DNA from: Luteimonas mephitis DSM 12574
Lineage (GTDB): Bacteria; Pseudomonadota; Gammaproteobacteria; Xanthomonadales; Xanthomonadaceae
DNA: 64,000 bases
Reading direction: 5' to 3'
Assembly: GCF_000422305.1 (NCBI RefSeq)
Contig: NZ_KE383816.1
Span: 608,566 to 672,565, forward strand
Part shown: piece after piece, positions 1 to 63,379 of the stretch
Position numbering within the stretch: position 1 is the stretch's first letter
Layout: each line of letters opens with the position of its first letter
The notes under the pieces: generated by a model
What the model saw: the letters and a program-made list of their open reading frames with translations, nothing else
Databases searched by the model: none
Told to the model about the DNA's origin: nothing
Position numbers and translations under genes: made by a program

Positions 1-56
1 AACACCGCGGCGCTCGCCTTGACCAGCTCCCAGCTGCGCGAGAATTTCTCGAACAT
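1..56 (-). CDS. DUF6159-like membrane protein, N-terminal fragment
   Basis: Only the first 18 codons are in the window; the gene runs off the left edge. The ATG at 56 opens a frame beginning MFEKFSRSWELVKAS. This resembles the start of DUF6159-family membrane proteins, whose role is not known. It is the last minus-strand gene after folK, from which it is separated by a palindromic repeat. The family call rests on a very short stretch and could be wrong. Confidence 0.45.
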   Translation of the reverse strand, partial: MFEKFSRSWELVKASAAV

Positions 57-160
57 GCCCTGCCTCCCCGGGTGACGGAACGATCTTGCGATGCATGCCT
101 CACGCACGCAAGCAGTGGAAGTGACCAATCCAGGACGGGCAGGCTCGGTGGATGTGACCC

Positions 161-226
161 GTAGGAGCGCCCCATGGGCGCGATGCATTACCGGTAAAGC
201 CCATCGCGCCCATGGGGCGCTCCTAC
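161..226. repeat. REP-like palindrome, GGAGCG family, copy 1
   Basis: Arms at 161-185 and 202-226 are near-perfect inverted copies (GTAGGAGCGCCCCATGGGCG and its complement) around a 16-base loop. The right arm contains the stop codon of folK (223-225). It is one of seven copies in the window. It could act as a transcript 3' stabiliser or weak terminator. Confidence 0.85.
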
Positions 227-717
227 GCGGCGTCGAAACCCGTCACCGCCTCCATCGCCACGTCGCGCTCCTGCGACGTCGCCCACAGCTGCGCCAGCGT
301 GCGCCCGCTGCGTGGCTCGACCGCGTCCGGGGCGATCTCCGCCAGCGGCCGCAGCACGAAGGCATGCCGCAGTTCGTCGCGCGGCACGCGCAGGTGGCCC
401 GGGCCTTCGACAACGCCTTCGTCGTACAGCACCAGGTCGACGTCGAGGGTGCGGTCGCCGAAGCGCGGCCCGCTGCGGTCGCGGCCGTGCGCGTCCTCCA
501 GCGCGTGCAGCCAGGCGTCGAGCGCTTCGGGTTCGAGGTCGGTTTCCACCACCGCCGCGGCGTTGAGGAAATCGTCGCCGTCGAAACCCACCGCGCGCGT
601 GCGGTAGACCTGCGACACCCGCACCTGTCCGAAGCGTGCGCGCAGCGCGGCGATCGCCGAACGCAGGTGGGCCTCGGGTTCGAGGTTGCTGCCCAGGCTC
701 AGGCAGGCGCGCGCCAT
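223..717 (-). CDS. folK: 2-amino-4-hydroxy-6-hydroxymethyldihydropteridine pyrophosphokinase
   Basis: This is HPPK (164 aa, normal length). It transfers pyrophosphate from ATP to 6-hydroxymethyl-dihydropterin in cytosolic folate synthesis. Visible marks are the N-terminal CLSLGSNLEP segment and the signature RFGDRTLDVDLVLYDE, which holds the Mg-binding aspartates, followed by VPRDELRHAFVLRPLAEIAP. The ATG at 717 follows a GAGGG-type ribosome site. It lies 7 bp after the mechanosensitive channel gene, in an operon with folB, the enzyme that makes its substrate. The stop codon lies inside a REP-like palindrome. Confidence 0.96.
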   Translation of the reverse strand: MARACLSLGSNLEPEAHLRSAIAALRARFGQVRVSQVYRTRAVGFDGDDFLNAAAVVETDLEPEALDAWLHALEDAHGRDRSGPRFGDRTLDVDLVLYDEGVVEGPGHLRVPRDELRHAFVLRPLAEIAPDAVEPRSGRTLAQLWATSQERDVAMEAVTGFDAA

Positions 718-724
718 CGCGCCC

Positions 725-1996
725 TCACTCTTCCGCCGCGACCGGCGCTGCGCGCAGGCCCGCCAGCGCGGTGCTCAGCTCGGCGCCGCTGGGCTGCTGG
801 AAGATCCGCAGCCCGAACTCGGGCAGCACCGCCAGCAGGTGGTCGAAGATGTCGCCGGCCAGGTTTTCGTACGGCACCCAGCGCACGTCGGCCGAGAAGC
901 AGTACACCTGCAGCGGCAGCCCGGTGGGCGTGGGGTCGAGCTGGCGCACCATCAGGGTCATGTCGTGCGCCACGCCCGGATGCGAACGCAGGTAGGCGGT
1001 CATGTAGGCGCGGAACGTGCCCAGGTTGGTCGCGCGGCGGTTGTTGACCGGATCCTTGCCGGCCGCCTCGAGCTTGGCGTTGTACTCGGCCAGCTCGGTC
1101 TTCTGCTTGTCCAGGTACTCGTCGATCAGCGCGATCCGGCGCAGGTGCTCGCGCTCGTCCGGCCGCAGGAAGCGCACCGACGTCTGGTCGATCAGCAGCG
1201 CGCGCTTTATCCGGCGGCCGCCGAATTCGCTCATCCCGCGCCAGTTGCGATAACTCTCGTTGATCAGCTTCCAGGTCGGGATGGTGCTGATCGTCTTGTC
1301 CCAGTTCTGCACCTTGACCGTGTGCAGGCTGATGTCGATCACGTCGCCATCGGCGTTCTGGCTGGGCATCTCGATCCAGTCGCCCACCCGCAGCATGTCG
1401 TTGCTCGACAGTTGCACCGAAGCCACCAGCGACAGGATGGTGTCCTTGAACACCAGCATCAGCACCGCGGTCATCGCGCCCAGGCCGGTCAGCAGCACCA
1501 GCGGCGAACGGCCGATCAGCGAGGCGATGATGAGCACGCCGGCGATGACGTAGATCGCGATCTTCAGCAGCTGCAGGTAACCCTTGATCGGGCGCCGCAC
1601 CGCGTGGCGGCTGGTCTGCTCGTAGATGTCGTTGAGCGCGTTGAGCAGGTTGCCGATCGCCATCGCCACGGTCAGCGCGACATAGGCCAGGGCGACGTTG
1701 CGCACCACCACGTCCAGCCATTCCGGCACCTCGGGCACCAGTGCGATGCCGCCGAGCACCACCAGCGCCGGCACCACGTTGGCCAGCCGCGCCAGCACCC
1801 GGCGGCCCATGATCGCGTCGTCCCACTTGCTCGGCGACGCCTTGGCGAGGCGACCGACCACGGCCAGCAGCACGCGCCGCGTCAGCCAGTTGGCGATCCA
1901 GGCGATCAGCGCCAGCGCCAGCAGGCCGGCCAGCGTGGATGCGAAGGGAACGCCGGCCAGCGGCCGCACGAGGTTGGATTCGATGAAGTCCTGCAT
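725..1996 (-). CDS. MscS-family mechanosensitive channel, YbdG type
   Basis: This is a 423-aa inner-membrane protein of the small-conductance mechanosensitive channel family, releasing solutes under osmotic downshock. Hydrophobic helices fill roughly residues 20-190. The MscS core runs through LTGLGAMTAVLMLVFKDTI and continues into the cytoplasmic beta domain (DMLRVGDWIEMPSQNADGDV). Length and the long C-terminal domain match YbdG/MscM rather than the about 290-aa MscS. It sits between folB and folK with gaps of 3 and 7 bp, so it is probably cotranscribed with folate genes although functionally unrelated. Confidence 0.9.
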   Translation of the reverse strand: MQDFIESNLVRPLAGVPFASTLAGLLALALIAWIANWLTRRVLLAVVGRLAKASPSKWDDAIMGRRVLARLANVVPALVVLGGIALVPEVPEWLDVVVRNVALAYVALTVAMAIGNLLNALNDIYEQTSRHAVRRPIKGYLQLLKIAIYVIAGVLIIASLIGRSPLVLLTGLGAMTAVLMLVFKDTILSLVASVQLSSNDMLRVGDWIEMPSQNADGDVIDISLHTVKVQNWDKTISTIPTWKLINESYRNWRGMSEFGGRRIKRALLIDQTSVRFLRPDEREHLRRIALIDEYLDKQKTELAEYNAKLEAAGKDPVNNRRATNLGTFRAYMTAYLRSHPGVAHDMTLMVRQLDPTPTGLPLQVYCFSADVRWVPYENLAGDIFDHLLAVLPEFGLRIFQQPSGAELSTALAGLRAAPVAAEE

Positions 1997-1999
1997 GCG

Positions 2000-2359
2000 C
2001 TACAGGGTAGCGGCTGTGCGCTCGATGGCCACCCCGACCGCGCGCGCACCGCGTACCGCGCCCGGCTTGCTCAGCTTCAGGCGCACGCGCGAAACGCCGA
2101 ACTCATCCAGGATGATCGCCGCCACGCGTTCGGCCAGCGTTTCCACCAGTCCGAAGCCCGACTGCGACACGTACTCGATCACCCGCTTGCTCACCGCCTT
2201 GTAGTTGAGCGTGTCGGCGATGTCGTCGCTGGCCGCGGGCACGCGGTTGTCGAAGTCCATCTCGATGTCGAACAGCAGCGGCTGGCGGATGCGCCGCTCC
2301 CAGTCGTAGATGCCGATGAGTGCCTCGACTTCGAGGGCTTCGATGAAGACGGTGTCCAT
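2000..2359 (-). CDS. folB: dihydroneopterin aldolase
   Basis: This 119-aa enzyme converts 7,8-dihydroneopterin to 6-hydroxymethyl-dihydropterin and glycolaldehyde, supplying FolK encoded downstream. It begins MDTVFIEALEVEALIGIYDWER and carries the T-fold pattern with LNYKAVSKRV and FGLVETLAERVA. The frame stays open upstream for about 23 codons of low-complexity Pro/Ser sequence derived from the heptad repeat, so the ATG at 2359 is chosen by alignment to the family start. No Shine-Dalgarno is visible: a C-rich repeat arm lies just upstream of the start. Confidence 0.94.
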   Translation of the reverse strand: MDTVFIEALEVEALIGIYDWERRIRQPLLFDIEMDFDNRVPAASDDIADTLNYKAVSKRVIEYVSQSGFGLVETLAERVAAIILDEFGVSRVRLKLSKPGAVRGARAVGVAIERTAATL

Positions 2360-2370
2360 GGGTTGGAGCC

Positions 2371-2491
2371 GGGATTCCGGATTGGGGAGTGGGGATTCGG
2401 GACTGGGGATTCGGGAAGGCAACGGCAACGACGCCAGCTTAGCGCGCTCGCCGTTCCTGCTTTTACGAATCCCCGCTCCCCACTCCCGAAC
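2371..2491 (-). repeat. polar heptad element A (tsaD-folB junction)
   Basis: On the coding (minus) strand a G-rich arm of GGGAGTGGGGAGCGGGGATT type (2491-2466) is followed by about 50 bp and then a C-rich arm of CCCGAATCCCCA type (2417-2371), ending 11 bases before the folB ATG. The G arm encodes the last residues of TsaD and the TAA stop lies directly after it. Three further copies with the same polarity occur at 22091, 23554 and 63086. Confidence 0.85.
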
Positions 2492-3527
2492 TCCGCGCAG
2501 CCGCCAGCGGCGGCAAGATCGCCATGTCCCAGCGCGGGGTCACGTGCACCTGCGCGTTGTCGCGCTGCCCGGCTTCGATGCGCAGTGCGCCGGCGAAGGC
2601 GATCATCGCGCCGTTGTCGGTGCACAGCGACGGACGCGGGAAGCAGGCGCGGCCGCCGCGGCGTTCGCACATCGCCTGCAGTTTGGCGCGCAGGCGCTTG
2701 TTGGCGCCGACGCCACCGGCCACCACCAGCACGTCGCAGCCGGCCGCATCCAGCGCGCGTTCGCACTTGATCGCCAGGGTGTCGACCACCGCGTCCTCGA
2801 AGCCGCGCGCGATGTCGGCGCGGGTCTGGTCGGCCCGGTCGCTGTTCTGCCAGGCCAGCAGCACCTGGGTCTTCAGGCCGCTGAAGCTGAAGTCGAGCCC
2901 GGGCCGGTCGGTCATCGGCCGCGAGAACCGGTAGCGTCCCGGCGTGCCGTCCTCGGCCAGCCGCGCCAGCTGCGGGCCGCCCGGGTACGGCAGGCCCATC
3001 ATCTTGGCGGTCTTGTCGAAGGCCTCGCCGGCGGCGTCGTCCAGGGTCTCGCCGAGCAGCCGGTAACTGCCGATCGCATCCACGGCGACCAGCTGGGTGT
3101 GGCCGCCGGACACCAGCAGGGCGACGAACGGGGGCTCCGGTGGGTCGTCCTCCATCAGCGGTGCCAGCAGGTGGCCCTCCATGTGGTGGACGCCCACGGC
3201 CGGCAGGTCCAGCGCCCAGGCCAGCGAGCGCGCCACCCCGGCGCCGACCAGCAGCGCCCCGACCAGGCCCGGACCGGCGGTATAGGCCACGCCGTCGAGG
3301 TCGCCTACCCCCAGCCCGGCTTCGGCCAGGGTCTGGCGGACCAGCGGCAGCAACTTGCGGACGTGGTCGCGGCTGGCCAGTTCCGGCACCACCCCGCCGT
3401 ACTCGGCATGCAGGGCGATCTGGCTGTACACGGCATGCGCCCGCAGGCCCTCGGCGCCGGGCAGCGCCGTGTCGTAGACAGCAACGCCGGTTTCATCGCA
3501 GCTGGATTCGATGCCGAGGATTTTCAT
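2463..3527 (-). CDS. tsaD: tRNA threonylcarbamoyladenosine transferase TsaD
   Basis: This is the catalytic subunit of the t6A37 tRNA modification complex (354 aa), which transfers the threonylcarbamoyl group made by TsaC. It begins [20 protein letters not shown]. The metal-binding HxxxH is H115/H119 in [10 protein letters not shown], and the ASKH-fold motifs TAGPGLVG and [10 protein letters not shown] are present. The ATG at 3527 is the family start; the open frame upstream is unrelated. The C-terminal GVGSGDS tail comes from a heptad repeat arm and is probably not functional. It is divergent from rpsU, as in E. coli, and heads the tsaD-folB-mscS-folK operon. Confidence 0.97.
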
Positions 3528-3601
3528 GGGGCTCGGGATGGCGGGCGGCTTGGGGGTCCAGCGGGTCCGGCTGGGCCGATCCGCGATCCTCCCGCCCGCG
3601 G

Positions 3602-3631
3602 TTGCACCGCTGCGGGGGCTCCCGTTATCAT
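3602..3631 (+). promoter_or_regulatory. candidate sigma-70 promoter for rpsU
   Basis: TTGCAC (3602-3607) and TATCAT (3626-3631) are separated by 18 bp, 94 bp before rpsU and 75 bp from the divergent tsaD start. It is a good match to the -35/-10 consensus in otherwise very GC-rich sequence. Confidence 0.55.
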
Positions 3632-3724
3632 ACGCGGCTCGCCGGAGGGATTCTGGCGACCTGCGAGTTCCTCGCACGAGTCCGCGCCCGCACAGGCCGG
3701 GCTTTCCAACCCACAGAGATTCCT

Positions 3725-3940
3725 ATGCCCAGCGTCAAAGTCCGCGAAAACGAGCCTTTCGAGTTTGCCCTGCGTCGCTTCAAGCGCACCTGCGAGAAGG
3801 CCGGCGTGCTCGCCGAAACCCGCAAGCGCGAGTACTACGAGAAGCCGACCCAGGAGCGCAAGCGCAAGGCCGCCGCCGCCGTGAAGCGCCAGGCGCGCCG
3901 CACCTCGCGCGACGTCACCAAGCGCCAGCGCCTGTGCTGA
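3725..3940 (+). CDS. rpsU: 30S ribosomal protein S21
   Basis: This 71-aa basic protein of the small ribosomal subunit is needed for binding the initiation region of mRNA. The sequence [20 protein letters not shown] followed by [20 protein letters not shown] is typical of the family, with the usual Lys/Arg-rich C-terminus. It starts the conserved rpsU-(yqeY)-dnaG cluster. A hairpin terminator follows 58 bp after the stop, so rpsU is probably made mostly as a short, strongly expressed transcript. Confidence 0.99.
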
Positions 3941-3997
3941 GGCAGGCGCGGATCCTTCCGCAGGCGCGCCCCGGCGCGCCGCAGCAGGATATCCTCG

Positions 3998-4029
3998 AAG
4001 CCGGCACGCGCAAGCGTCGCCGGCTTTTT
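3998..4029 (+). terminator. Rho-independent terminator after rpsU
   Basis: The stem AAGCCGGC (3998-4005) pairs with GCCGGCTT (4019-4026). An inner ACGC/GCGT stem closes on a GCAA tetraloop, and the hairpin runs into TTTTT. It separates rpsU from yqeY and dnaG, allowing different expression levels. Confidence 0.8.
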
Positions 4030-4061
4030 GTCTTGCAGCGACCCGGTGATCAGCGCGCCTT

Positions 4062-4138
4062 GTGGGAGCGGCTTCAGCCGGGAGCTTTCCGGCCCTGCAT
4101 GCGCCAGCGCGAAGGCTCGCGGCTTAAGCCGCTCCTGC
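4062..4138. repeat. REP-like palindrome, GGAGCG family, copy 2
   Basis: The arms GTGGGAGCGGCTTCAGCCG (4062-4080) and CGGCTTAAGCCGCTCCTGC (4120-4138) flank about 39 bp. This is a variant of the seven-copy family, between the rpsU terminator and yqeY. Confidence 0.75.
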
Positions 4139-4205
4139 GGATTTCCCAGAGCGCGTGCCGGCTGCAGCCTGGCGCCGCCACCCCAACTGCCCTACGGAGA
4201 GCCCC

Positions 4206-4655
4206 ATGACCCTCAAGCAGCAACTCGTCGACGACATGAAGGCCGCGATGAAATCCGGCGACAAGCAGCGCCTGGGCGTGATCCGCCTGGTCAACGCCGC
4301 GATCAAGCAACGCGAGGTGGACGAGCGCATCGAACTCGACGATGCCGCCGTGCTCGCCGTGCTGGAAAAGATGGTCAAGCAGCGCAAGGACTCGGTGAGC
4401 CAGTACGAAACCGCGCAGCGCGAGGACCTGGCCGAAATCGAGCGCGCCGAAATCGTGGTGATCGAGCACTACCTGCCCGAAAAGCTGGGCGACGCCGAGA
4501 TCCAGGCGGCCATCGAGGCGGCCATCGCGCAGACCGGCGCCACCGGCCCGGCCGACATGGGCAAGCTGATGGGCGTGCTCAAGCCGAAGCTTGCCGGGCT
4601 GGCCGACATGGGCCTGGTCTCGGCACTGGTGAAGAAGCGGCTCACCGCCGGCTGA
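4206..4655 (+). CDS. GatB/YqeY domain protein
   Basis: This 149-aa protein is related to the tail domain of GatB, the amidotransferase subunit that contacts tRNA. A free-standing YqeY is thought to act on tRNA-dependent amidation or tRNA binding, but its exact role is unproven. Family features are MTLKQQLVDDMKAAMKSGDK at the start, EIVVIEHYLPEKLGDAEI in the middle and ADMGKLMGVLKPKLAGLADM near the end. The ATG at 4206 follows a GGAG. It is located between rpsU and dnaG, as in many bacteria. Confidence 0.93.
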   Translation: MTLKQQLVDDMKAAMKSGDKQRLGVIRLVNAAIKQREVDERIELDDAAVLAVLEKMVKQRKDSVSQYETAQREDLAEIERAEIVVIEHYLPEKLGDAEIQAAIEAAIAQTGATGPADMGKLMGVLKPKLAGLADMGLVSALVKKRLTAG

Positions 4656-4703
4656 GCTGGCACGCCGGGCGTCGCGGCGACGCCCCGCCCCGCGTCGAAG
4701 TCC

Positions 4704-4762
4704 GTGGGAGCAGCATGGCCGCGATCCCGACCGGACTTCATCGCGGCGATGGCCGCTCCCAC
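4704..4762. repeat. REP-like palindrome, GGAGCG family, copy 3
   Basis: GTGGGAGCAGCATGGCCGCGAT (abridged; 4704-4725) is inverted at 4740-4762. It lies in the 280-bp gap between yqeY and yihY; the rest of the gap shows nothing else clear. Confidence 0.75.
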
Positions 4763-4922
4763 GAGGCCCGCGACCGAGCCAGCCCGCAGACCGGAAAGTC
4801 GTTCAGCAGCGGCTGGCGCAAGGCGCGCACCATCTCCGCCCCTCCCGGTTTGATCCGCGCACTCTTCCCGATCATGCCTGTCATGCGCGGGCCGGCTGGA
4901 CATTCCCTGCACGCTCGACCCC

Positions 4923-4928
4923 TATGCT
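4923..4928 (+). promoter_or_regulatory. candidate -10 box of yihY
   Basis: TATGCT ends 7 bases before the ATG at 4936. No Shine-Dalgarno precedes that ATG, so the arrangement fits a leaderless transcript. No convincing -35 was found. Confidence 0.3.
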
Positions 4929-4935
4929 CGGGCCC

Positions 4936-5814
4936 ATGCGAATGCCTGCCCGATTCCAGCCGCTCGTCGAGCGGCTGCAGCAAAGCCTCCCGGTCGCGCT
5001 CGCGCGCCGGTTCAGCGACGCCGACCTGCTGACCCACGCCGCGGCGCTGTCGTTCTACACCCTGCTCTCGCTGGCGCCGCTGCTGGTGCTGCTGCTGTGG
5101 CTGGCGGCCTCGCTGTATCCCTCGGCGCAGGATGCCCTGGTCGAACAGATGGCCGACCTCGCCGGCCGCGGGGCGCAGGACGTGGCGCAAACCGTGATCG
5201 CCAATGCCGAACGAGAACCCGACATTGGTTCGCTGGCCGGGATCTGGAGCACGGCGCTGCTGTTCGTGAGTGCGACGATCGTGTTCGCCCGGCTGCAGAC
5301 CGCGCTCAACCTGATCTTCCGCAGCGACTCGCGCGAGCTGCCCGGCGGACTGTGGGCGTGGCTGCGCAAGCGGGTGCTGTCGTTCGGCGTAGTGCTGGCG
5401 CTGGGCTTCCTGCTGCTGGTGTCGATGACCCTCAGCACGGTGATGCAGGTGGTGTTCGCGCGGCTGCCTTCGATCCTGCCGGTGATCGGCAACGTGACTT
5501 CGCTGGCGCTGTATTCGCTCGCCTTCGCCCTGCTCTACCACTTCCTCCCCGATCGCCGCGTGCACTGGCGCCAGGCGTTCGTGGGCGGTGTGCTCACCGC
5601 CGCGCTGTTCGTGCTCGGCCGCTGGGCAATCGGCCTGTACCTGGCCGAGGCTGCGCCGGGCAGCGCCTACGGCTCGATGGGCACCCTGGTGCTGCTGCTG
5701 GTGTGGATGTACTACGCCGCCGCGGTGTTCTTCATCGGCGCGCTGATCACTGCGGTGATCGACGAACGCATGTCCCGGGCCGACGCAGCGCCGACGGCGC
5801 CACCGGCGGGCTGA
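4936..5814 (+). CDS. YihY/BrkB family inner-membrane protein
   Basis: This is a 292-aa polytopic membrane protein of the YihY/virulence factor BrkB family (formerly called RNase BN, a role now assigned elsewhere). It begins with the cytoplasmic segment LLTHAAALSFYTLLSLAPLL and has about six hydrophobic helices. The conserved LFRSDSRELPGGLWAWLRKR-like loop and the terminal GSMGTLVLLLVWMYYAAAVF stretch are present. Possible starts are 4924, 4936 and 4942; 4936 is preferred because of the -10-like box upstream. Function in cells is not established. Here it interrupts the usual yqeY-dnaG adjacency. Confidence 0.88.
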   Translation: MRMPARFQPLVERLQQSLPVALARRFSDADLLTHAAALSFYTLLSLAPLLVLLLWLAASLYPSAQDALVEQMADLAGRGAQDVAQTVIANAEREPDIGSLAGIWSTALLFVSATIVFARLQTALNLIFRSDSRELPGGLWAWLRKRVLSFGVVLALGFLLLVSMTLSTVMQVVFARLPSILPVIGNVTSLALYSLAFALLYHFLPDRRVHWRQAFVGGVLTAALFVLGRWAIGLYLAEAAPGSAYGSMGTLVLLLVWMYYAAAVFFIGALITAVIDERMSRADAAPTAPPAG

Positions 5815-5992
5815 TCCGGCCGGCCGGATGCGGCCGGCAAATGCGATCATGGCGGCATGGCCCGCCTGTCCGCCGCCCTTGTCGTCGACCGCCCCCCCGC
5901 GAACGCGCGTCGCGGTGCGGGTGGACGCACCGCCGCGCGCAGGCGGGCCCGGGCGGCCGGCGCAACGACATCGCCATCGGAGGCCGGCTGAG

Positions 5993-7717
5993 ATGGCGCG
6001 GCTCTCCGATGCCTTCATCGACGACCTCCTGGCGCGGACGGACATCGTCGAGGTGATCAACGCGCGGGTGCCGTTGAAACGCCAGGGCAAGGAATACTCG
6101 GCGCGCTGCCCGTTCCACGACGAGCGCTCGCCGTCGTTCACGGTGTCGCCGACCAAGCAGTTCTACCACTGCTTCGGCTGCGGCGCGCACGGCACCGCGA
6201 TCTCGTTCCTGATGAACTACGACCGGCTCGAGTTCCTCGACGCGGTCGACGACCTCGCCCGCCGCGCCGGCATCGAGGTGCCGCGCGAGACCCGGCAGCA
6301 CAACGAGAATCCGGATGCGAAGGATCTGTTCGGCGCGCTCGAGGCCGCCGCGCATTTCTTCCGCAAGCAGCTGGCCGGCAGCGACAAGGCGCAGGCCTAC
6401 CTCGACCGGCGCGGCGTCGACGAACACATCCGCGCGCAGTTCGCGATCGGCTACGCGCCCGACGGCTTCTCCGTGCTGCGCGATGCGCTGGGCACCGACG
6501 CGCGGCGCATGGGCCTGCTCGAACGCGCCGGCCTGTTTTCGAAGAACGACAAGGGCCACGTCTACGACAAGTTCCGCGACCGGGTGATGTTCCCGATCCA
6601 CGATCGCCGTGGCCGGCCGATCGCCTTCGGCGGGCGCGTGCTCGACGCCGACGCGTCGCCCAAGTACCTCAACTCGCCCGAGACCGCGCTGTTCCACAAG
6701 GGCCGCGAGCTGTACGGCCTGTGGCAGGTGCGCCAGGCCAATTCGAGGATCGAGCGGCTGATCGTGGTCGAGGGTTACATGGACGTGGTCGCGCTGTTCC
6801 AGCACGGCGTGACCCAGGCGGTCGCCACGCTCGGCACCGCGACCACGCCCGACCACGCCGAGCTGCTGTTCCGCAACGCGCCCGACGTGTACTTCTGCTT
6901 CGACGGCGACAACGCCGGGCGCAAGGCCGCGACGCGCGCGATGGAGTCGGTGCTGCCGCGCATGCGCGACGGCCGCCAGGCGTTCTTCCTGTTCCTGCCC
7001 GAAGGCGAGGACCCGGATACGCTCGTGCGCAGCGAAGGCGCGCCCGGGCTGGACGCCCGCCTGCAGCACGCCACGCCGCTGTCGCAGTTCCTGTTCGACT
7101 CGCTGGCGGTCGACGTTAACCTGGCCACGCTCGACGGCAAGGCGCGGCTGGCCGAGCGGGCAAAGCCGATGCTGGCGCAGATCCCCGACGGCGCGTTCGG
7201 CGACCTGATGCGGCAGCGGCTGACTGAACTCACCGGCGTGGGTGCGCGCGACAGCGCGCCGGGCACGCACGTGGTGCAGCGGGTGCAGCGTTCGTCGACG
7301 GTAGCGGCGCCCAGGCGCAGCCTGGTGCGCAGCGCGATCGCCCTGCTGCTGCAGAAGCCGGCGCTGGCGCTGGAACTGCAGCCGCCGTATCGCTTCGTCG
7401 GCCTGCGCCAGCCCGGCGTGGACCTGCTCACCGAGCTGGTCGCGCTGGTCAGCGCGCGCCCGGACATCGCCACCGGCGCCTTGCTCGAGCATTTCGCGGA
7501 TCGCGACGAAGCCGCCGCGCTGCAGAAGCTCGCCAGCCACGCGATGCCCGGCGACGAGGCGCGCTGGCGCGACGAGTTCCTCGACACCATGGCCCAGATC
7601 GATCGCCAGGTCCTGCAGCAGCGCATCGACGAGCTGCAGGCCAAACAGCGCGACGGCGGGCTCGACGAAGCGGACAAGGCCGAGCTGCGCTCGCTGCTGA
7701 CGGCGGGCATGCGCTGA
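5993..7717 (+). CDS. dnaG: DNA primase
   Basis: This 574-aa enzyme synthesises RNA primers at replication forks and binds DnaB helicase. The CHC2 zinc domain uses C39, H42, C60 and C63 (CPFHDERSPSF, YHCFGCGAHG). The central TOPRIM domain shows VVEGYMDVVALFQHG and YFCFDGDNAGRKAA. The C-terminal helicase-interaction domain ends with a helical Glu/Leu-rich region. The ATG at 5993 has GGAGG about 10 bases upstream. In many gammaproteobacteria rpoD follows; here the next genes are ctaB/ctaA on the other strand. Confidence 0.98.
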   Translation: MARLSDAFIDDLLARTDIVEVINARVPLKRQGKEYSARCPFHDERSPSFTVSPTKQFYHCFGCGAHGTAISFLMNYDRLEFLDAVDDLARRAGIEVPRETRQHNENPDAKDLFGALEAAAHFFRKQLAGSDKAQAYLDRRGVDEHIRAQFAIGYAPDGFSVLRDALGTDARRMGLLERAGLFSKNDKGHVYDKFRDRVMFPIHDRRGRPIAFGGRVLDADASPKYLNSPETALFHKGRELYGLWQVRQANSRIERLIVVEGYMDVVALFQHGVTQAVATLGTATTPDHAELLFRNAPDVYFCFDGDNAGRKAATRAMESVLPRMRDGRQAFFLFLPEGEDPDTLVRSEGAPGLDARLQHATPLSQFLFDSLAVDVNLATLDGKARLAERAKPMLAQIPDGAFGDLMRQRLTELTGVGARDSAPGTHVVQRVQRSSTVAAPRRSLVRSAIALLLQKPALALELQPPYRFVGLRQPGVDLLTELVALVSARPDIATGALLEHFADRDEAAALQKLASHAMPGDEARWRDEFLDTMAQIDRQVLQQRIDELQAKQRDGGLDEADKAELRSLLTAGMR

Positions 7718-7851
7718 AGGCGACGCCGCACCGGCGCGTGCGGGCCGTGCCGCCCGGAGGCCATGGCTTCACTCGCGGGCGCTGGATCCTGTTCGCGGTA
7801 ACAGCCCGCGGCTGAAACCGCAGCCGCAAGGGCCGCGGCGGTCGCGGTGGT

Positions 7852-8769
7852 TCAGGCCGGCACGAACTGCAGCGCCGCCGCCGGCTGCAGCCACGGCATC
7901 AGCCAGTGGTCGACCAGCAGGAACGCGAACAGCGCCATCAGGTACACCACCGAATAGTTGAACACGCGCATGGCGAAGAACTCGTCCGGCGGGTCCATCA
8001 GCTTCCATGCGTACCAGAGGAACATCACCCCGAGCACGACCGCGCCACCGAGGTAGAACCATCCGCTCATGCCGGCGATCGTCGGCAGCATCGTCACCAC
8101 GAACAGCAGCACGGTGTAGAGCAGGATCTGCCAGCGCGTGTACTGCACGCCGTGGGTCACCGGCAGCATCGGCACCAGCGCGCGCGCGTAGTCGGCGCGG
8201 CGGAAGATCGCCAGCGCCCAGAAGTGCGGCGGCGTCCACACGAACACGATCAGCACCAGCAGCCAGGCGTAGGCCCAGTCCCACGGGCCCTGCATGTTGG
8301 TCACCGCGGCCCATCCCAGCAGCGGCGGCGCGGCGCCGGCGATGCCGCCGATCACGATGTTCTGTGGCGTCGCGCGCTTGAGGAAACCGGTGTAGATGAT
8401 CGCGTAGCCGATCAGCGAGGCAAACGTCAGCGCCGCGGTCAGCGGGTTGACCAGCGCGATCAGGATCGTCATCGACGCCGCGCCGAGGAACACCGCGAAC
8501 GCCAGCACCTGCGCCGGCTGCAGCGTACCGGTGGCCAGCGGCCGGTTGGCGGTGCGCACCATCACCTTGTCGATGCGCTGGTCGATCAGGTGGTTGATCG
8601 CCGCGGCCGACGCCGCGGCCAGCCAGATGCCGAGCAGCCCGAACACGCTCTCGCGCAGCGGCGGCAACCCGGGCCGGGCGAGGAACATCCCCACCACCGC
8701 GGTGAACACGATCAGCGACACCACCCGCGGCTTGGTCAGCTCCCAGTACTGGCCGGCGATCCCCTTCAT
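7852..8769 (-). CDS. ctaB: protoheme IX farnesyltransferase (heme O synthase)
   Basis: This is a 305-aa UbiA-superfamily membrane enzyme (CtaB/CyoE). It adds a farnesyl group to heme B, giving heme O, which CtaA converts to heme A. The prenyl-diphosphate binding motif [19 protein letters not shown] (D63, D67) and the second Asp-containing loop region are present, with about nine hydrophobic helices. The start overlaps the ctaA stop by one base (TGATG), so translation is coupled. It is the last gene of the surf1-ctaA-ctaB block. Confidence 0.96.
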
Positions 8770-9947
8770 CAGTCGATCGCCCGCAGCCGCGCCAGCAGCG
8801 ACACCAGCACGAACAGCAGCAGCACCGCGCCGGCGTTGTGCGCCACCGCCACGTCCAGCGGCAGCGACAGCTTGACGTTGGCGATGCCCAGCGCGACCTG
8901 GGTGCAGGCCAGTAGCGCAAGCAACACCGCCCAGCCGCGCAGGCCCGGCGTGCGCAGCAGCCGCAGGGCGAGCGCGACCAGCGCGGTGAACGCCACCACC
9001 GCCATCATCCGGTGCGCCATCTGGATCGCGATGCGCGACGCGCCGTCGAGCACGCCGCCCTCGTAGTCCACGCCGATCCCGCGCCAGAGCACGAAGCCTT
9101 CGCGGAAATCATGCGGCGGCCACCACTGGCCCACGCATTTGGGGAAGTCGTTGGCGCAGGCCAGCGCGGCGTAGTTGGCGCTGGTCCAGCCGCCGAGCGC
9201 GATCTGCGCCGCCAGCAGCACCAGTACCACCACCACCCAGCGCCGCAGCAGCAGCGCGTCGGCCAGCCGGATCGGCGAATGCGTCGCCCGCCACGCCATC
9301 CACGTCAGCAGCGCGAACGTGGTCAGCCCGCCCAGCAGATGCCCCATCACCACGATCGGCTTGAGCAGCCAGGTCACCGTCCACATGCCCAGCAATGCCT
9401 GGAAGATGATCACCGCCAGGGTCAGTACGGCGGTGCGCGCCAGGTCGATGTTCGACCAGCGCAGCGCGGCGACCAGCAGGATCGCCTCGCCCGCAACCGC
9501 CAGCGCCGAGGCCGCAACGTGCATGCCGCGCATGTACAGCGGGATTGCCAGCGCCACCAGCACCGCGGCCGCGGCCACCTGCAGCACGCCGTGCGGGCGC
9601 CTGCGCGCGGCCAGCAGCGCCAGCACCAGCACCAGCACGCCAAGCGCACCGGCGATCATGCGGTGCAGCTGTTCGCGCCAAGCCTTGTGGATCTCGACCG
9701 GACGGATCGCGGTCGCGGCGTGGTCGGCCACGCCCTGGCTCGCTGCGGTGGGCCACGAGGCGCGGCCGTAGCAGGTCGGCCAGTCGGGACAGCTCAGGCC
9801 GGCGTTGGACAGGCGCACGAACGCGCCGAACACGATCACGCCCAGCGCGAGCGCAACCGCCAGCCAGGCGATGCGGTGGAAGTGCCGATACACCGTCGGC
9901 CTGGCATGGCCGATCGCGGTGCCCGGGGATTTCGCGTCTGCGTTCAT
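8769..9947 (-). CDS. ctaA: heme A synthase, COX15/CtaA family
   Basis: This 392-aa, eight-helix membrane enzyme oxidises the C8 methyl of heme O to the formyl of heme A. Family signs are [21 protein letters not shown] near the N-terminus (first part shown), the helix-borne His in [34 protein letters not shown]-like sequence, and a late [12 protein letters not shown] His pair. The ATG at 9947 is preferred to a TTG six bases earlier. It sits 10 bp after the SCO-like gene and one base overlaps ctaB. Confidence 0.95.
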
Positions 9948-9957
9948 CGGCAAGCGA

Positions 9958-10521
9958 TCACATCAGTCTCAGCAGCTTCGCCACGTCAGCGCGCAGTCCA
10001 CCCGGGTCGAAGCCCGGAGCGTAGCGCAGAATGACGAAGCCGTTCGGATCGACCACGTAGACCGGAACGCCGGCAGGATCGTCGACCCGCGGCAGCTTCG
10101 CACGCAGTGCCGGGTCCATGCGCAGCACGCGCGTGGCCGCGTTGCGCGTCGCGTCGGCCGGCGGCGCGCCGAGCCAGAGGATGTCGAGTTCGTCGGCCTT
10201 GTTGCCGAACAGGCGCCAGACCAGGTCGAGTTCGCGCGCCAGCTCGCGGCACGGATCGCCGCAGCCGGGCGGCGGCGCGACCAGCACGCGCCAGCGGCGC
10301 TCGGCCGGCTTCCATGCGTACTCGCCGCCGGCATCGAGCCGGGGCGTGAAATCGCGCAGGTCGGTCGGCGGCTGCAGCAGCTCGCCGTGGTTCTTCATCC
10401 CCGAAGGCTGCCAGCCGGAGAAGCGCAGCGCGCCGGCAACCAGCATGCCGCCGAGGAAGATCGCGATGACCGCGAAGAACGTAAGCCGGTTGCGTTTGCC
10501 CGCGGTTGCGTCGTTGCTCAT
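9958..10521 (-). CDS. membrane-anchored SCO-like (thioredoxin-fold) protein
   Basis: This 187-aa protein has one N-terminal membrane anchor (FFAVIAIFLGGMLVAGALRF, residues about 15-35) and a periplasmic domain with C87-x3-C91 (PPGCGDPC). That CxxxC resembles the copper site of SCO1/SenC assembly factors. It lies between surf1 and ctaA, the position of an uncharacterised gene in Pseudomonas cox loci (PA0111-like). The conserved distal His of true SCO proteins is not evident, so copper delivery is inference. It overlaps surf1 by 4 bases (ATGA). Confidence 0.7.
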   Translation of the reverse strand: MSNDATAGKRNRLTFFAVIAIFLGGMLVAGALRFSGWQPSGMKNHGELLQPPTDLRDFTPRLDAGGEYAWKPAERRWRVLVAPPPGCGDPCRELARELDLVWRLFGNKADELDILWLGAPPADATRNAATRVLRMDPALRAKLPRVDDPAGVPVYVVDPNGFVILRYAPGFDPGGLRADVAKLLRLM

Positions 10522-11246
10522 GGCGTGGCCTTGTTCGTCTTGCGTTTGCGGAAAGTGAGCAGCAGCGCGATCACCAGCACCGCAGCGGCCAGTGCGAACC
10601 ACTGCACCGCGTAGCCCAGGTGGCGTTCGGGCGGCAGCGTGTTGGGCAGCACGTCGAGGTCGCGCGCGTAGCCCAGCGGCGCGGCGGGGTCGAGCTTGAG
10701 CACGCGCGGTGCCAGCCCGGGCTGGTGCAGCTGGTCACGCAGTCCAGCCGCATCAAGCCCGGTGGCCAGCACCTGCCCGCCGGACTGCGGCACGGCCACG
10801 GCGGCAAGGATGCCGTGCGACGGCGGCGGCGCCAGCAGGCCGGCGAGACGCAGCTCACCGGGCGGGCGCGACACCACCGGCAGCTTGCGGTCGCCGGGCA
10901 GCGGCAGCCACCCCAGCTCCACCAGCAGCGGCGCGGCGCCCGGCGCCGACGGCTGGAACACCCGGTAGGCGCGCACGCCGGGGCGGTCGTCGCGCTGCTG
11001 GTTGTCGAGCAGTACCGCCGGCGCATCGACGAAACGGCCGGCACCGGCCGCCCAGTCGTAGTCGCGTTCGCGCGCGATATCGCCGGCGACCGCCAGCGGG
11101 CGCGGCGTGCGCAGGTCCAGCACCTGCTGGACGGCGTCGAGCATCGCCTGCTTCTCATGCATGCGCCCGAGCTGCCAGGCGCCGAGCGAACACAGCCCGC
11201 CCGCCACCAGCACGGCCAGCAGCCACCAACCGACCATGTTGCGCAT
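10518..11246 (-). CDS. SURF1 family cytochrome oxidase assembly protein
   Basis: This 242-aa protein has the SURF1 layout: an N-terminal helix (GWWLLAVLVAGGLCSLGAWQ), a periplasmic domain and a C-terminal helix (VQWFALAAAVLVIALLLTF). Motifs include LGAWQLGR after the first helix and LVELGWLP. SURF1 helps heme A insertion into oxidase subunit I. The ATG at 11246 is preferred over an upstream GTG. It is the first gene of the block surf1 - SCO-like - ctaA - ctaB, divergent from DUF2909. Confidence 0.9.
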   Translation of the reverse strand: MRNMVGWWLLAVLVAGGLCSLGAWQLGRMHEKQAMLDAVQQVLDLRTPRPLAVAGDIARERDYDWAAGAGRFVDAPAVLLDNQQRDDRPGVRAYRVFQPSAPGAAPLLVELGWLPLPGDRKLPVVSRPPGELRLAGLLAPPPSHGILAAVAVPQSGGQVLATGLDAAGLRDQLHQPGLAPRVLKLDPAAPLGYARDLDVLPNTLPPERHLGYAVQWFALAAAVLVIALLLTFRKRKTNKATP

Positions 11247-11276
11247 GGCGCTCACGCGCACCGGCCCCGCGCCTGC

Positions 11277-11282
11277 GATAAT
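11277..11282 (+). promoter_or_regulatory. candidate -10 box for the DUF2909 transcript
   Basis: GATAAT lies 6 bases before an ATG at 11289 and 38 bases before the DUF2909 start, in the 74-bp divergent gap with surf1. No clear -35 is seen. Confidence 0.35.
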
Positions 11283-11288
11283 CCGTTC

Positions 11289-11324
11289 ATGCGCCCGCCG
11301 CGCCGATCCCGGAGACCGACATGA
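11289..11324 (+). CDS. possible 11-codon leader peptide
   Basis: An ATG six bases after GATAAT opens a frame reading MRPPRRSRRPT. Its TGA stop overlaps the DUF2909 start codon (ATGA). Such an overlap could couple translation. The Shine-Dalgarno of DUF2909 (GGAGA) is inside it. It may be chance; no homologue is claimed. Confidence 0.2.
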   Translation: MRPPRRSRRPT

Positions 11325-11539
11325 ACGATTCGCTGAAAACCCTGCTGATCGTTGCCTTCCTGCTGGTCATCCTGTGGAACCTCGGCGCGGGCCTGTATTA
11401 CATGCTGGTCGACAAGGGACAGACCAAGCGCACCGTGAACGCGCTGACCAGGCGCATTGCGCTGTCGGTCGCACTGATCCTGCTGGTCGTCCTGGCAATC
11501 TGGATGGGCTGGATCACGCCGCACGGCATCCAGGGCTGA
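11321..11539 (+). CDS. DUF2909 twin-transmembrane protein
   Basis: This 72-aa membrane protein has two hydrophobic helices (LLIVAFLLVILWNLGAGLYY and ALSVALILLVVLAIWMGWI) joined by a short basic loop with DKGQTKRTVNALTRRIALS. DUF2909 proteins are found next to cytochrome oxidase genes and are presumed small assembly or stability factors, without proof. GGAGA precedes the ATG. Here it is on the strand opposite to both flanking cox blocks. Confidence 0.85.
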   Translation: MNDSLKTLLIVAFLLVILWNLGAGLYYMLVDKGQTKRTVNALTRRIALSVALILLVVLAIWMGWITPHGIQG

Positions 11540-11566
11540 CAGCGTCGCCGCTGGCGCACCGGCGGG

Positions 11567-11690
11567 TTGGCGTTCCCTCCTTCCCCTTCAAGGGAAAGGC
11601 CGGGATGGGATCGGGTCTTGCCGGGGCATCCAGGGAAATCCATCCCCGCCCACGCCCTCCCCGTGAAAGGAAGGGGAACCGGAACGCGGC
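11567..11690. repeat. imperfect palindromic repeat between DUF2909 and coxC
   Basis: The convergent gap holds TTCCCCTTCAAGGGAA (11581-11596) and a related inverted block CCCTCCCCGTGAAAGGAAGGGG (abridged) at about 11657-11679. This resembles the CCCTCCCC palindrome at 39849-39869. It may serve as a bidirectional terminator, although there is no T tract. Confidence 0.5.
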
Positions 11691-11705
11691 TACGCCGCGC
11701 GCGCC

Positions 11706-12584
11706 TTACAGCACGTAGACGAACAGGAACAGGCCCAGCCACACCACGTCGACGAAGTGCCAGTACCACGCCACCGCTTCGAACGCGAAGTGGTCGTCCT
11801 TGCTGAAGTGGCCCTTGGCGCAGCGCAGCCAGATGATCGCCAGCATGATCGTGCCGAGGGTCACGTGCGCGCCATGGAAGCCGGTCAGCATGAAGAACGT
11901 CGAGCCGTAGATGCCCGAACCCAGGGTCAGGTTCAGCTCCGAATAGGCATGCATGTACTCCTCGACCTGGAAGAACAGGAACGTGCAGCCCAGCAGCACG
12001 GTCAGGCCCAGGAACACCAGCAGCTGCTTGCGATGGCCGGCCTTGAGCGCGTGGTGCGCGATGGTCACGGTCACGCCCGACGTCAGCAGGATCAGGGTGT
12101 TGAGCAGTGGCAGGCCCCAGGCCGGGATGGTCTGGAAGTGGCCGCCGACCTGCCCCGGGCCGCTGCTCGGCCATGCCGCGCTGAAGCCGTCCCAGAGCAG
12201 CGCATTGGTCATCACGCCGTCGCCGGCGCCGCCCAGCCACGGCAGCGCGTACTGGCGGGCGTAGAACAGCGCGCCGAAGAACGCGCCGAAGAACATCACC
12301 TCGGAGAAGATGAACCACACCATCCCCATCCGGAACGAGCCGTCGACCTGCTTGTTGTAGTAGCCGGACACCGACTCGAGGATCACGTCGGCAAACCACT
12401 TGAACAGGATCGCGATCAACCCGGCGATGCCGACGAAGAACATCGTCTTGCCGTAGCTGGCCTCATTGAACCAGCTGGCCAGCCCGTACATCGTGACGAA
12501 CAGGGCCACCGACGCGAACACCGGCCAGCGGCTGTGGTGCGGCACGAAGTAGGCGTTGGGATCGTAGGTCTGGGCTTGGGCCAT
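11706..12584 (-). CDS. coxC: cytochrome c oxidase subunit III
   Basis: This 292-aa membrane subunit of the aa3-type oxidase has seven predicted helices. Markers are the N-terminal YFVPHHSRWPVFASVALFVT, MVWFIFSEVMFFGAFFGALF and the lipid-site region with VEEYMHAYSELNLTLGSG and TGFHGAHVTLGTIML. An ACGGAAGA ribosome site precedes the ATG at 12584. It is last in the coxB-coxA-small-ctaG-coxC block, 27 bp after ctaG. Confidence 0.98.
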   Translation of the reverse strand: MAQAQTYDPNAYFVPHHSRWPVFASVALFVTMYGLASWFNEASYGKTMFFVGIAGLIAILFKWFADVILESVSGYYNKQVDGSFRMGMVWFIFSEVMFFGAFFGALFYARQYALPWLGGAGDGVMTNALLWDGFSAAWPSSGPGQVGGHFQTIPAWGLPLLNTLILLTSGVTVTIAHHALKAGHRKQLLVFLGLTVLLGCTFLFFQVEEYMHAYSELNLTLGSGIYGSTFFMLTGFHGAHVTLGTIMLAIIWLRCAKGHFSKDDHFAFEAVAWYWHFVDVVWLGLFLFVYVL

Positions 12585-12611
12585 GGTGGTCTTCCGTTGG
12601 AACCAGTGGTG

Positions 12612-13217
12612 TCAGGGTGCCGCGCGCGAGCCGACGGCCGAACCCGCCGGCGCCGCCTCGAGCTGCGCGGTCAACTCGTTGTTCTTGAAGAACGTGTAGG
12701 ACAGGGTGATGGTGTGGATGTTGTCGGGCAGGTCCGGCGCGACGATGAAGCGCACCGGCATGTCGCGCGCCTCGCCGGCGGCCAACGTCTGCGCGGTGAA
12801 GCAGAAGCATTCGGTCTTGCTGAAATAGCCCGACGCGCGCGCCGGCGCGATCGAGGGCACCGCGTTGCCGACGATGGCGCGCTGGCCGTCGTTGCGGGCA
12901 AAGAACATCGTGTCGTACTGCTGCCCGGGGCGCACCTGCATGGTCGCCTGCTCGGGACGGAACGACCACGGCAGCTTCGAGTTCACCCCGCCGTCGAACT
13001 GCACGGTGATCACGCGATCCGACTTGCGCGCCTCGAGGGCGGCGGCACGCTCGCCACCGATCGCGCCCTGCTCCACGCGGATGCCGAACACCTTCTCGCA
13101 GGCGATGCGGTACATCGGCACCAGCGAGAAGGTGAAGGCGAACGCGGCGAACGCCACGCCCACCATCTTGACCGTGCCGCGGCCGTTGCGCTTCTGCTTG
13201 TCGTCCGCCGCGCTCAC
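12612..13217 (-). CDS. ctaG: cytochrome c oxidase assembly protein CtaG/Cox11
   Basis: This 201-aa copper chaperone inserts CuB into subunit I. One N-terminal helix (VGVAFAAFAFTFSLVPMYRI) is followed by C39 and a periplasmic immunoglobulin-like domain bearing the copper motif KTECFCFTAQTL. The start is GTG at 13217 and overlaps the stop of the preceding 43-aa gene (GTGA), implying coupled translation. Confidence 0.96.
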   Translation of the reverse strand: MSAADDKQKRNGRGTVKMVGVAFAAFAFTFSLVPMYRIACEKVFGIRVEQGAIGGERAAALEARKSDRVITVQFDGGVNSKLPWSFRPEQATMQVRPGQQYDTMFFARNDGQRAIVGNAVPSIAPARASGYFSKTECFCFTAQTLAAGEARDMPVRFIVAPDLPDNIHTITLSYTFFKNNELTAQLEAAPAGSAVGSRAAP

Positions 13218-13345
13218 GTCGCCAGCACCCCGCTGAGGATGAAGCCGATGTAGATCACCGCCGCGATCGCCGCCACCACCAGCGCGGTGCGACGCACGCC
13301 GTGGCGGCGCGCGTTGTCCTCGCTGCGGTGGTCGGGGGACGTCAT
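13214..13345 (-). CDS. small single-pass membrane protein in cox operon
   Basis: This 43-aa frame starts MTSPDHRSEDNARRHGVRR. It has one helix (TALVVAAIAAVIYIGFILSG), with the basic side predicted cytoplasmic. It lies 23 bp after coxA and overlaps ctaG by 4 bases, so it is very likely translated. Similar unnamed small proteins occur between coxA and ctaG in related bacteria; a role in oxidase assembly is inferred from position only. Confidence 0.7.
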   Translation of the reverse strand: MTSPDHRSEDNARRHGVRRTALVVAAIAAVIYIGFILSGVLAT

Positions 13346-13368
13346 GGCCAGGTCGCTCGTCACGTCAC

Positions 13369-19624: not shown

Positions 19625-19658
19625 CCGCGGGGCGGGTTTGATCCCGATGGCGACGGCG

Positions 19659-22090: not shown

Positions 22091-22182
22091 GGGATTGGGG
22101 ATTGGGGATTGGGGATTGGGAAAAGTCGCAATCGGACCGAGTTGTGCGACGAACCGTTCTTGCGAATCCCGAATCCCGAATA
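22091..22182 (+). repeat. polar heptad element C (rhomboid-DUF1820 junction)
   Basis: The G arm (22091-22120), four and a half tandem GGGATTG heptads, starts 9 bases after the rhomboid stop. The C arm (22164-22182), GAATCCCGAATCCCGAAT, ends 21 bases before the next ATG. Arms pair at six of every seven positions. Orientation relative to transcription is the same as in the other three copies. Confidence 0.88.
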
Positions 22183-22191
22183 CCGGCGCCT

Positions 22192-22197
22192 TATAAT
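22192..22197 (+). promoter_or_regulatory. -10 box of DUF1820 gene, leaderless type
   Basis: A perfect TATAAT ends 6 bases before the ATG at 22204, so transcription would begin at or within a base of the start codon. No ribosome-binding site is present. No -35 match was seen; the heptad C arm occupies that region. Confidence 0.5.
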
Positions 22198-23547: not shown

Positions 23548-23553
23548 GGGTGT

Positions 23554-23732
23554 CGGGATCAGGGATTGGGGATTGGGGATTCGGAAAAGCGGGTGGGACT
23601 CACGCCATTGGCGTCACTGGCGACGAACGGGGTTCTCGAACGGGCAATCCGCGCAAACGACACTCCCGGGCGCGGCAGGCATCGCATCGCGCGGGCGCTC
23701 TTCCGAATCCCCAATCCCTAATTCCTAATCCC
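23554..23732 (-). repeat. polar heptad element B (def-fmt junction)
   Basis: The outer heptads include a perfect 18-bp inverted repeat (23701-23718 against 23569-23586: TTCCGAATCCCCAATCCC). On the minus strand the G arm supplies the last codons and TAG stop of def, and the C arm ends 6 bases before the fmt ATG. About 115 bp between them is unique. Confidence 0.9.
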
Positions 23733-24240
23733 GGCTTTTCCGCAGCTTGTCGTACTTCTTCAACGCCCGGTCGCGCTTGAGCGGCGACAGGTAGTCGATG
23801 AACAGCTTGCCGTCGAGATGGTCGACCTCGTGCTGCACGCAGGTCGCCAGCAGGTCGTCGACTTCGAGCACGAACGTCTTGCCGTGGCGGTCCAGCGCCT
23901 CGACCTCGATGCCGTCGGCGCGGGTCACGTCGGCATAGATGCCGGGGATCGACAGGCAGCCTTCCTGGTGCTCGCGCAGCTGCTCGGTGCGGCGGCGGAT
24001 CACCGGGTTGATGAACACCAGCGGCTGGTCGCGGCCTTCGCTGACGTCGATGACCATGAAGCGCTCGTGCACGTCGACCTGGGTCGCGGCCAGGCCGATG
24101 CCGGGCGCGATGTACATGGTCTCGAACATGTCGTCGAGCAGGCGCTGGAACTGGGGAGTGGCGATGCGCTCGACATCCAGGGCGCCGGCGACGTTGCGCA
24201 GGCGCGGATGCGGCAGTTCGAGGATCGGAAGCAGGGGCAT
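23725..24240 (-). CDS. def: peptide deformylase
   Basis: This 171-aa metalloenzyme removes the N-formyl group from new proteins. The three motifs are present: [18 protein letters not shown] (metal ligand C95) and QHEVDHLDG (H137, E138, H141). The ATG at 24240 fits the family start [15 protein letters not shown]. The final Asp codon and TAG stop come from a heptad repeat arm. It is divergent from the LysM-dprA gene row, as in Pseudomonas and Xanthomonas. Confidence 0.98.
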
Positions 24241-62381: not shown

Positions 62382-63085
62382 GCGGCATCCAGCTGCGCGC
62401 GCGGCGGCAGCGACCAGTCGATCGGCGTCTTGCCGTTGCGCGACAGGTAGTCGTTGGCGGCGGAAAAATGCCCGCTGCCGAGGAAGCCGCGATGCGCCGA
62501 CAGCGGCGAGGGATGCGTGGTCCTGAGCACACGATGGCGACGCGTGTCGATCACCTTGCCCTTGGCCTGAGCGTAGGCGCCCCAGAGCAGGAACACCAGG
62601 CCTTCGCGTTCGCGGTTGAGGCTGTCGACGACGTGGTCGGTGAATCCTTCCCAGCCCTTGCCCTGGTGCGAACCGGCGCGGCCTTCCTCGACCGTGAGCA
62701 CCGAGTTGAGCAGCAGCACGCCGCGCCGCGCCCAGGGCACCAGGTAGCCGTGGTCGGGGCGGGCAATGCCAAGGTCGCGCTGGATTTCCTTGAACATGTT
62801 GTCCAGCGACGGCGGCACCGGCACGCCGGGCAGCACCGAGAAGCACAGCCCGTGCGCCTGGCCGGCGCCGTGGTAAGGGTCCTGGCCGAGGATCACGACA
62901 TCCACTGCGTCGAACGGCGTGGCATCGAACGCGGCGAAGATCTGCCGCGCCGGCGGGAAGATCCGCGCGCCGGCGGCATGCCGCTCGCGCAGGAACCGCG
63001 ACAGCGCCTGCATGTCGTCGCGCTGCAGGTACTCGCCGACGCGCGCCTTCCAGGAGGCTTCGAGCTTGATGTGGTCGTCGGGCAT
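62378..63085 (-). CDS. ung: uracil-DNA glycosylase
   Basis: This 235-aa family 1 enzyme removes uracil from DNA. The catalytic D69 lies in [38 protein letters not shown] has the second active-site loop, and [12 protein letters not shown] is present. The ATG at 63085 gives the normal length. In-frame sequence upstream is only heptad-repeat translation (DSRFPIP units), so it is excluded. No Shine-Dalgarno: the repeat arm directly abuts the start codon. Confidence 0.97.
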
Positions 63086-63379
63086 GGGAATCGGGAATCG
63101 GGAATCGGGAATCGGGAATCGGGAATCGGGAAGAGCATGCGGCCCCTGCTCTTTCATGTCATCCCCGGCGCGGCGCGGAACGCTTGCGGTTCTTCTCCCG
63201 ACTGTGGGGAGGCAGGCCCACGGCAATGCGCCTGCCACCTTTTGCACGGCGACTGCGGCGACCCGTTGGCTCCCGCCTCCGCTTCGCGTGGTCGAAGGCC
63301 CGGTGGAAGCGGCCGGCCGCGTGGCGGCAACGAAGTCGCGGCGCCCTAGCGGCTCCCGCTTCCCGCTTCCCGATTTCCG
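63086..63379 (-). repeat. polar heptad element D (response regulator-ung junction)
   Basis: On the minus strand the G arm (63379-63351; GGGAAGCGGGAAGCGGGAGC) encodes the last residues of the response regulator. After about 218 bp the C arm of six CCCGATT heptads (63133-63086) ends exactly at the ung start. This is the longest of the four copies. Confidence 0.85.

Follow-up and report, generated by a model that had tools for sequence, protein, structure and literature searches.

Facing heptad-repeat arms at gene junctions of Luteimonas mephitis DSM 12574 and their possible reading as intercistronic hairpins

Known heptad repeats and the junctions of the window

The GGGAATC heptads of Xanthomonas are the closest described counterparts of the repeats analyzed in this work. 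According to the account of Rehm et al. (2015, PMC4692102), they are mostly intergenic, mainly located between aligned ORFs, and follow a fixed strand rule near ORF ends, with the G on the coding strand just after stops and on the non-coding strand just before starts; convergent (inverted) pairs number 70 in Xcc and 75 in Xac and are rare between divergent ORFs. The same account describes G-quadruplex (G4) formation in vitro, leaves the function open, and identifies the repeats in Xanthomonas and not in other gammaproteobacteria.

The window, i.e., the whole stretch of 64,000 nucleotides of L. mephitis DSM 12574 analyzed here, carries heptad arms of this known kind at four junctions (Table 1), those of tsaD/folB, rhomboid/DUF1820, def/fmt, and a response-regulator gene/a gene of the uracil-DNA-glycosylase (UDG) superfamily. 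A sequence-only reading had described tandem heptads with a complementary arm at tsaD-folB and at three further junctions, and our analysis confirms this, the second arm of the last junction being degenerate. The flanking genes are co-directional in all four cases (one on the + strand, three on the - strand). At least two tandem heptads including one GGGAATC, as in the Xanthomonas repeats, are found at 63085-63132; GGGAATC units are absent from the other three copies, whose units are GGGATTS-like.

Table 1. Heptad arms and promoter-like motifs at the four junctions (window coordinates).
Feature	Position	Strand	Remark
folB-side heptad arm	2365..2417	+	adjoins folB start; G-rich on +, C-rich in folB mRNA
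tsaD-side partner arm	2466..2495	-	overlaps tsaD 3' end; G-rich in tsaD mRNA
TAAGCTG promoter-like motif between the arms	2435..2441	-	recurs in 12/23 armless relatives
Heptad arm after rhomboid gene stop codon	22086..22120	+	
Partner arm upstream of DUF1820	22163..22186	-	
TATAAT (promoter-like)	22192..22197	+	between right arm and DUF1820 start codon; outside the pair
Heptad arm adjoining fmt start	23553..23597	+	
Partner arm overlapping def 3' end	23703..23734	-	
Perfect GGGAATC array	63085..63132	+	adjoins start of UDG-superfamily gene
Degenerate partner arm	63350..63379	-	overlaps 3' end of response-regulator gene

At the first junction, tsaD was correctly seen to terminate inside its arm, with the tail GVGSGDS, and the distance of 11 bases read between the C arm and the folB ATG (at 2359) holds if counted from the first strict heptad, the arm as called by the fuzzy finder lying 5 bp away. 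Two other statements of the same reading stand only in part. A Shine-Dalgarno sequence (GGAG, GAGG, AGGA or AAGG at -18..-4, searched in 17 armed and 23 armless tsaD-folB junctions) is indeed missing from the armed junctions (0/17), but this is not a special feature of theirs, only 4 of the 23 armless ones having one. Likewise, the in-frame Pro/Ser extension of folB exists as an open frame and nothing more: in 49/49 junctions of the genus the start codon at the homology-found FolB N terminus is followed by GAC or GAT (47 ATGGAC, one GTGGAC and one ATGGAT).

TAAGCTG between the tsaD-folB arms and TATAAT upstream of DUF1820 may be regarded as promoter-like; a sigma-70 scan returned no promoter at the tsaD-folB junction. 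The arms were also scanned, within 1-20000, 21000-25000 and 61000-64000, for intrinsic terminators oriented like the genes (a short hairpin rich in G+C with a T run behind it), and no such site was found on them; Rfam gave 0 gathering-score matches in the window. Among the named relatives of TsaD are those of Stenotrophomonas (89% identity), Luteimonas terricola (87%) and Xanthomonas sp. (86%). Def is 87% identical to its counterparts in genomes G003 and G022 and at most 82% to those in the other genomes listed, a pattern not shared by TsaD, which hints that the two genes might have had different histories.

Orientation and pairing of the arms

In the 3.4-Mb genome (hereafter G000), the exact pattern GGGRWTSGGGRWTSGGG gave 125 forward and 85 reverse, i.e., 210 overlapping matches, and its reversed control gave 0. 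The reversed-sequence control of the fuzzy arm finder was not clean (8 vs 4 in the window at threshold 13; 14 of 43 tsaD-folB segments), and significance therefore rests on the exact pattern. The G000 sample of pairs was drawn from the first 100 listed of the 210 matches, excluding one false reverse arm (L148), one GGGGGCT tract (L167) and two GGGGCTG tracts (L152), with genes called by our own codon-usage script; its arm consensus, read by eye, is GAGCC-GGGATTS x3-4-GGAARAGC. The tracts differ in length and reach up to 150 bp. Two very long single arrays adjoining a start codon were observed, one of about 150 bp at L148 (C1:311884), in which the units pass from GGGATTG to GGGAATC, and one of about 94 bp at L151 (C1:416167). 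A hairpin motif resembling REP sequences, GACCAGCC-...-GGCTGTTGAAC or a near form, is common to the interiors of L145, L154 and L163.

The arms obey a simple rule: each begins at an ORF edge, with the G strand heading away from the gene, and the pairs therefore face inward. Such inward pairs are 26/26 in the G000 sample, each within one intergenic gap and accompanied by 14 single arms, and 17/17 in the relatives G046 and G049, where stretches around every close neighbour pair among the matches listed (150 rows) were taken; position lists of G010, G013, G018 and G019 add 27/27 inward close pairs. At least three close neighbours in the G046/G049 listing are not inward (two outward, one same-strand), and a short gene separates the members of each such couple (L348, L349, L350). 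The arms are intergenic near ORF ends, with the G strand leading away from the gene, and in 60/66 of them the outer end is no more than 50 bp from the edge of a called ORF; four of the six exceptions (L145, L167 and two arms of L146) border on gaps of 659-1824 bp lacking a called gene, in which genes may have been overlooked.

The polarity with the G arm first noticed in the sequence-only reading needs rewording. The non-random inward orientation stands; whichever strand is read, the G arm of an inverted pair comes first, so that "G arm first" means that the arms face inward and no more, and the pair has no direction relative to the co-directional genes. As for the neighbours, the G000 pairs lie between 25 co-directional, one convergent and no divergent couples of genes, to be read against a baseline of 22 co-directional, 7 convergent and 7 divergent gaps of at least 40 bp in the window, and those of G046/G049 between 14, two and one, respectively (gene calls as read). 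Thus, neither random orientation nor frequent copies between divergent genes, named beforehand as what would refute a fixed polarity, was found (0/26 divergent in G000, 1/17 in the relatives). The overall figures for the 43 pairs (39 co-directional, 3 convergent, 1 divergent) imply that nearly every pair is located downstream of some gene.

All 43 pairs form at least 15 inter-arm base pairs on folding (median 30), which is expected, since inverted arms fold by construction; at two window junctions the stems are accompanied by z-scores of -4.71 and -2.87. The partner arms, taken alone, resemble each other more than shuffled partners do (0/20000 permutations over the 43 pairs). By genome, 0, 48 and 1868 of 20000 permutations reached the observed likeness in G000, G046 and G049, respectively, the last being not significant. 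Similarly, the partner duplexes are stronger than shuffled ones in G000 (5/20000 as stable) and G046 (60/20000) and not significantly so in G049 (1472/20000). When 10-base flanks are included the effect in G000 weakens (43/20000 vs 0/20000 on the arms alone), with the true partner ranking anywhere from 1 to 25 of 26. The RNA hairpin suggested by the sequence-only reading thus gains support, partners beating shuffled ones in two of the three genomes.

The agreement between partners concerns the heptad type and not the single units. Indeed, the seventh letters are not in register (67/150 vs a non-partner mean of 0.398; 206/2000 permutations as high), and hence the pairing of the arms has not been perfected and exact palindrome copying from one arm to the other can be rejected. 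At L348, two neighbouring junctions have different heptad types, with partners of like type inside each pair; at L361 the two arms are mismatched.

Heptad types and erosion among relatives

Within the genus, 25/52 genomes match the GGG pattern, 16/52 the GTGATTS pattern GTGATTNGTGATTNGTGATT, and 29/52 at least one of the two. The GTGATTS arms, which have no GGG tract, occupy the same junctions with the same facing, both arms being of this type at several of them, and several types occur side by side in one genome. GTGATTC tracts were observed at the ends of contigs C2, C4 and C5 of G046, as if the arrays had broken the assembly. In a sample of the class, 18/369 genomes match, each with at most two matches apart from G000, from G418, which is of the same order and has 22, and from G385, which is of another family and has 138. 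At one locus of the distant gammaproteobacterium G385 (L248), two co-directional genes enclose an inward pair.

The tsaD-folB junction was recovered from 49/52 genomes (not from G011, G013 and G038), and after six were dropped for spacing, 43 were usable: 17 have both arms, two only the right one, one only the left one, and 23 none. Arm presence is patchy among close relatives, also at housekeeping genes. Of the 17 armed junctions, 9 carry TAAGCTG, or a near form of it, between their arms; the motif also occurs in 12 of the 23 junctions without arms. In the best 30 loci compared for each of rhomboid-DUF1820 and def-fmt, the right arm at rhomboid-DUF1820 of G000, G019 and G046 ends before a TATAAT adjoining the start codon. 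As the motif is inside the pair at folB and outside it at DUF1820, there is no fixed relation between the arms and the downstream promoter-like motif, but both always fall within the RNA that reads through from an upstream gene of the same direction. Another palindromic repeat (CTTGTCATCCCGAGCGCAGCGAGGGATCT ... with its complement) was seen between the tsaD-folB arms of G026, G019 and G049 (L033, L042, L043) and after a weak left arm at rhomboid-DUF1820 of G041 (L197).

On the TsaD+FolB tree, arm-rich and arm-poor genomes interleave: G028 has 71 matches and forms one group, supported at 100/99, with G007, G036 and G042, which have 0 to 2. When six G028 junctions were aligned with these relatives, five were roughly colinear with one or both, and some of the sister sequences look, by eye, like GTGATTS arms that have eroded, L284 being the clearest case; at L283 the stretch lying between the genes shows no similarity. 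Moreover, G010/G025, G032/G044 and G026/G049 group together yet differ in heptad type at tsaD-folB, a difference that either switching in place or independent gain would produce, both being compatible with these data.

Possible readings and comparison with known systems

The layout, the inward rule, the match of partner type and the ability to fold are computed observations, and the reading that in our opinion accommodates them best, although we hold it tentatively and somewhat short of an even chance, is that of an intercistronic RNA hairpin at transcript boundaries. The two arms, starting at the edges of neighbouring genes and facing inward, would pair in the read-through RNA of the upstream gene into a stem of about 30 bp closing off the intergenic stretch. 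Such a stem might set two transcripts apart, by blocking 3' exonucleases and/or by offering RNase III a place to cut, and might in this way loosen the coupling of adjacent genes. These genes can do without the arms, given that relatives have none or lose them. This idea fits both the match between partners and the finding that hardly any pair lies between divergent genes. In the published RNA-seq of Xac, transcript starts and stops are commoner at G4-capable repeats than at short or mutated ones (PMC4692102), a contrast that confounds G4 capacity with repeat length. The single arms, the patchy presence, the lack of a significant partner effect in G049, that of in-register seventh letters and that of terminator-like sites on the arms in the stretches scanned count against the boundary hairpin. 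In addition, the inward rule does not follow from folding by itself, because C-first pairs would fold equally well.

The absence of C-first pairs is as yet accounted for neither by the boundary hairpin nor by its main competitor, according to which the arms are selfish or neutral sequences that some recombination or copying activity has spread and made uniform, ORF edges being the only places where they are tolerated; their facing layout would then stem from how they are copied (through a single-stranded hairpin of the kind put forward for REPINs) rather than from any advantage to the genes. We consider this possible, some way below probable. The patchy presence, the interleaving of rich and poor genomes, the change of type between sisters at the same junction, the eroded-looking arms near G028 and the coexistence of types within one genome all speak for it. 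On the other hand, no carrier was found: PF01797 (RAYT) is found in 37/57 genomes yet not in the rich G041 and G044, arms occur in 0/17 stretches around its matches, and RVT_1 is present in 16/57 genomes and absent from G000. Neither family clearly tracks the heptads, and both were rejected as drivers. Besides, the arms at tsaD-folB bracket a shared motif, so the pair was not delivered there as one unit.

A lineage-specific trans-acting system that writes and rewrites facing arms at ORF edges and unifies the heptad type per junction is a rather unlikely, more speculative idea. If true, it would be telomere-like, the G strand always leading away from the gene, and species without the writing system would let their arms erode in place.

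A G-quadruplex switch, in DNA or RNA, regulating the neighbouring genes seems to us very unlikely. GGGAATC and GGGGATT oligonucleotides do form G4 in vitro according to PMC4692102, and four units are frequent in the arms, but the GTGATTS arrays of 16/52 genus genomes keep the same layout without a GGG tract, which weakens the G-rich structure put forward in the sequence-only reading, a two-tetrad structure in these arms being possible. Even less credit can be given to plain polymerase slippage of a heptad microsatellite excluded from coding sequence by selection: it would agree with the variable tract length and with the use of such heptads as VNTR markers reported for X. euvesicatoria (PMC8002079), and leaves the inward rule, the same-type partners and the shared ends beyond the heptads unexplained. 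Finally, a MITE-like element with the arms as terminal repeats, inserted as one unit at gene junctions in line with the mobile element that had been proposed, is the least credible reading, since, in spite of the inverted ends and the many dispersed copies, armless relatives share the promoter-like motif bracketed at tsaD-folB and the interiors of the G000 sample, read by eye, form no single family; single arms may nevertheless be mobile, or conversion may be at work.

Different known systems resemble the facing pairs in part. A MITE should have a shared interior and be wholly absent at empty sites, and the motif inside the tsaD-folB arms departs from this. Correia/nemis elements are also inverted repeats between genes, which, according to PMC2649163, RNase III binds and may cut; they possess a conserved core and move as whole units, whereas no common core was seen here and cutting of the heptad stem by RNase III would be an extrapolation. 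REPINs/BIMEs with their RAYT transposases, as presented in PMC3116915, are likewise dispersed, extragenic, hairpin-capable inverted doublets that also occur as singlets; in our case the arm is a heptad array and not a REP palindrome, and no RAYT linkage was found (none of the 17 stretches around PF01797 matches contains an arm). The GGGGA(C/T)T heptads of Nostoc PCC7120 share the heptad unit and the strand rule near ORF ends, and differ in their few inverted pairs (PMC4692102).

The likeness to the Xanthomonas repeats is the closest, including the period of 7, the G-richness, the intergenic location, the strand rule, the facing pairs and their rarity between divergent ORFs, and the differences are that three of the four window copies lack GGGAATC and that relatives use GTGATTS without GGG. 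A literature search, judged mostly from titles and the openings of abstracts, returned no paper visibly dealing with GTGATTS arms or partner matching, and the consulted portion of the account by Rehm et al. (PMC4692102) does not present partner matching, a bracketed motif or erosion in relatives. The GTGATTS types, the match of partner type, the bracketed motif and the apparent decay in close relatives are thus what is added to this known kind. The published heptad repeats were framed in that account as G-quadruplexes without a known role (PMC4692102); in the light of the GTGATTS types in relatives, of partners that match and of the motif enclosed by the arms, it would rather be the facing pair with its hairpin that is the relevant unit, and the patchy presence in close relatives offers a direct comparative route for seeking the responsible gene.
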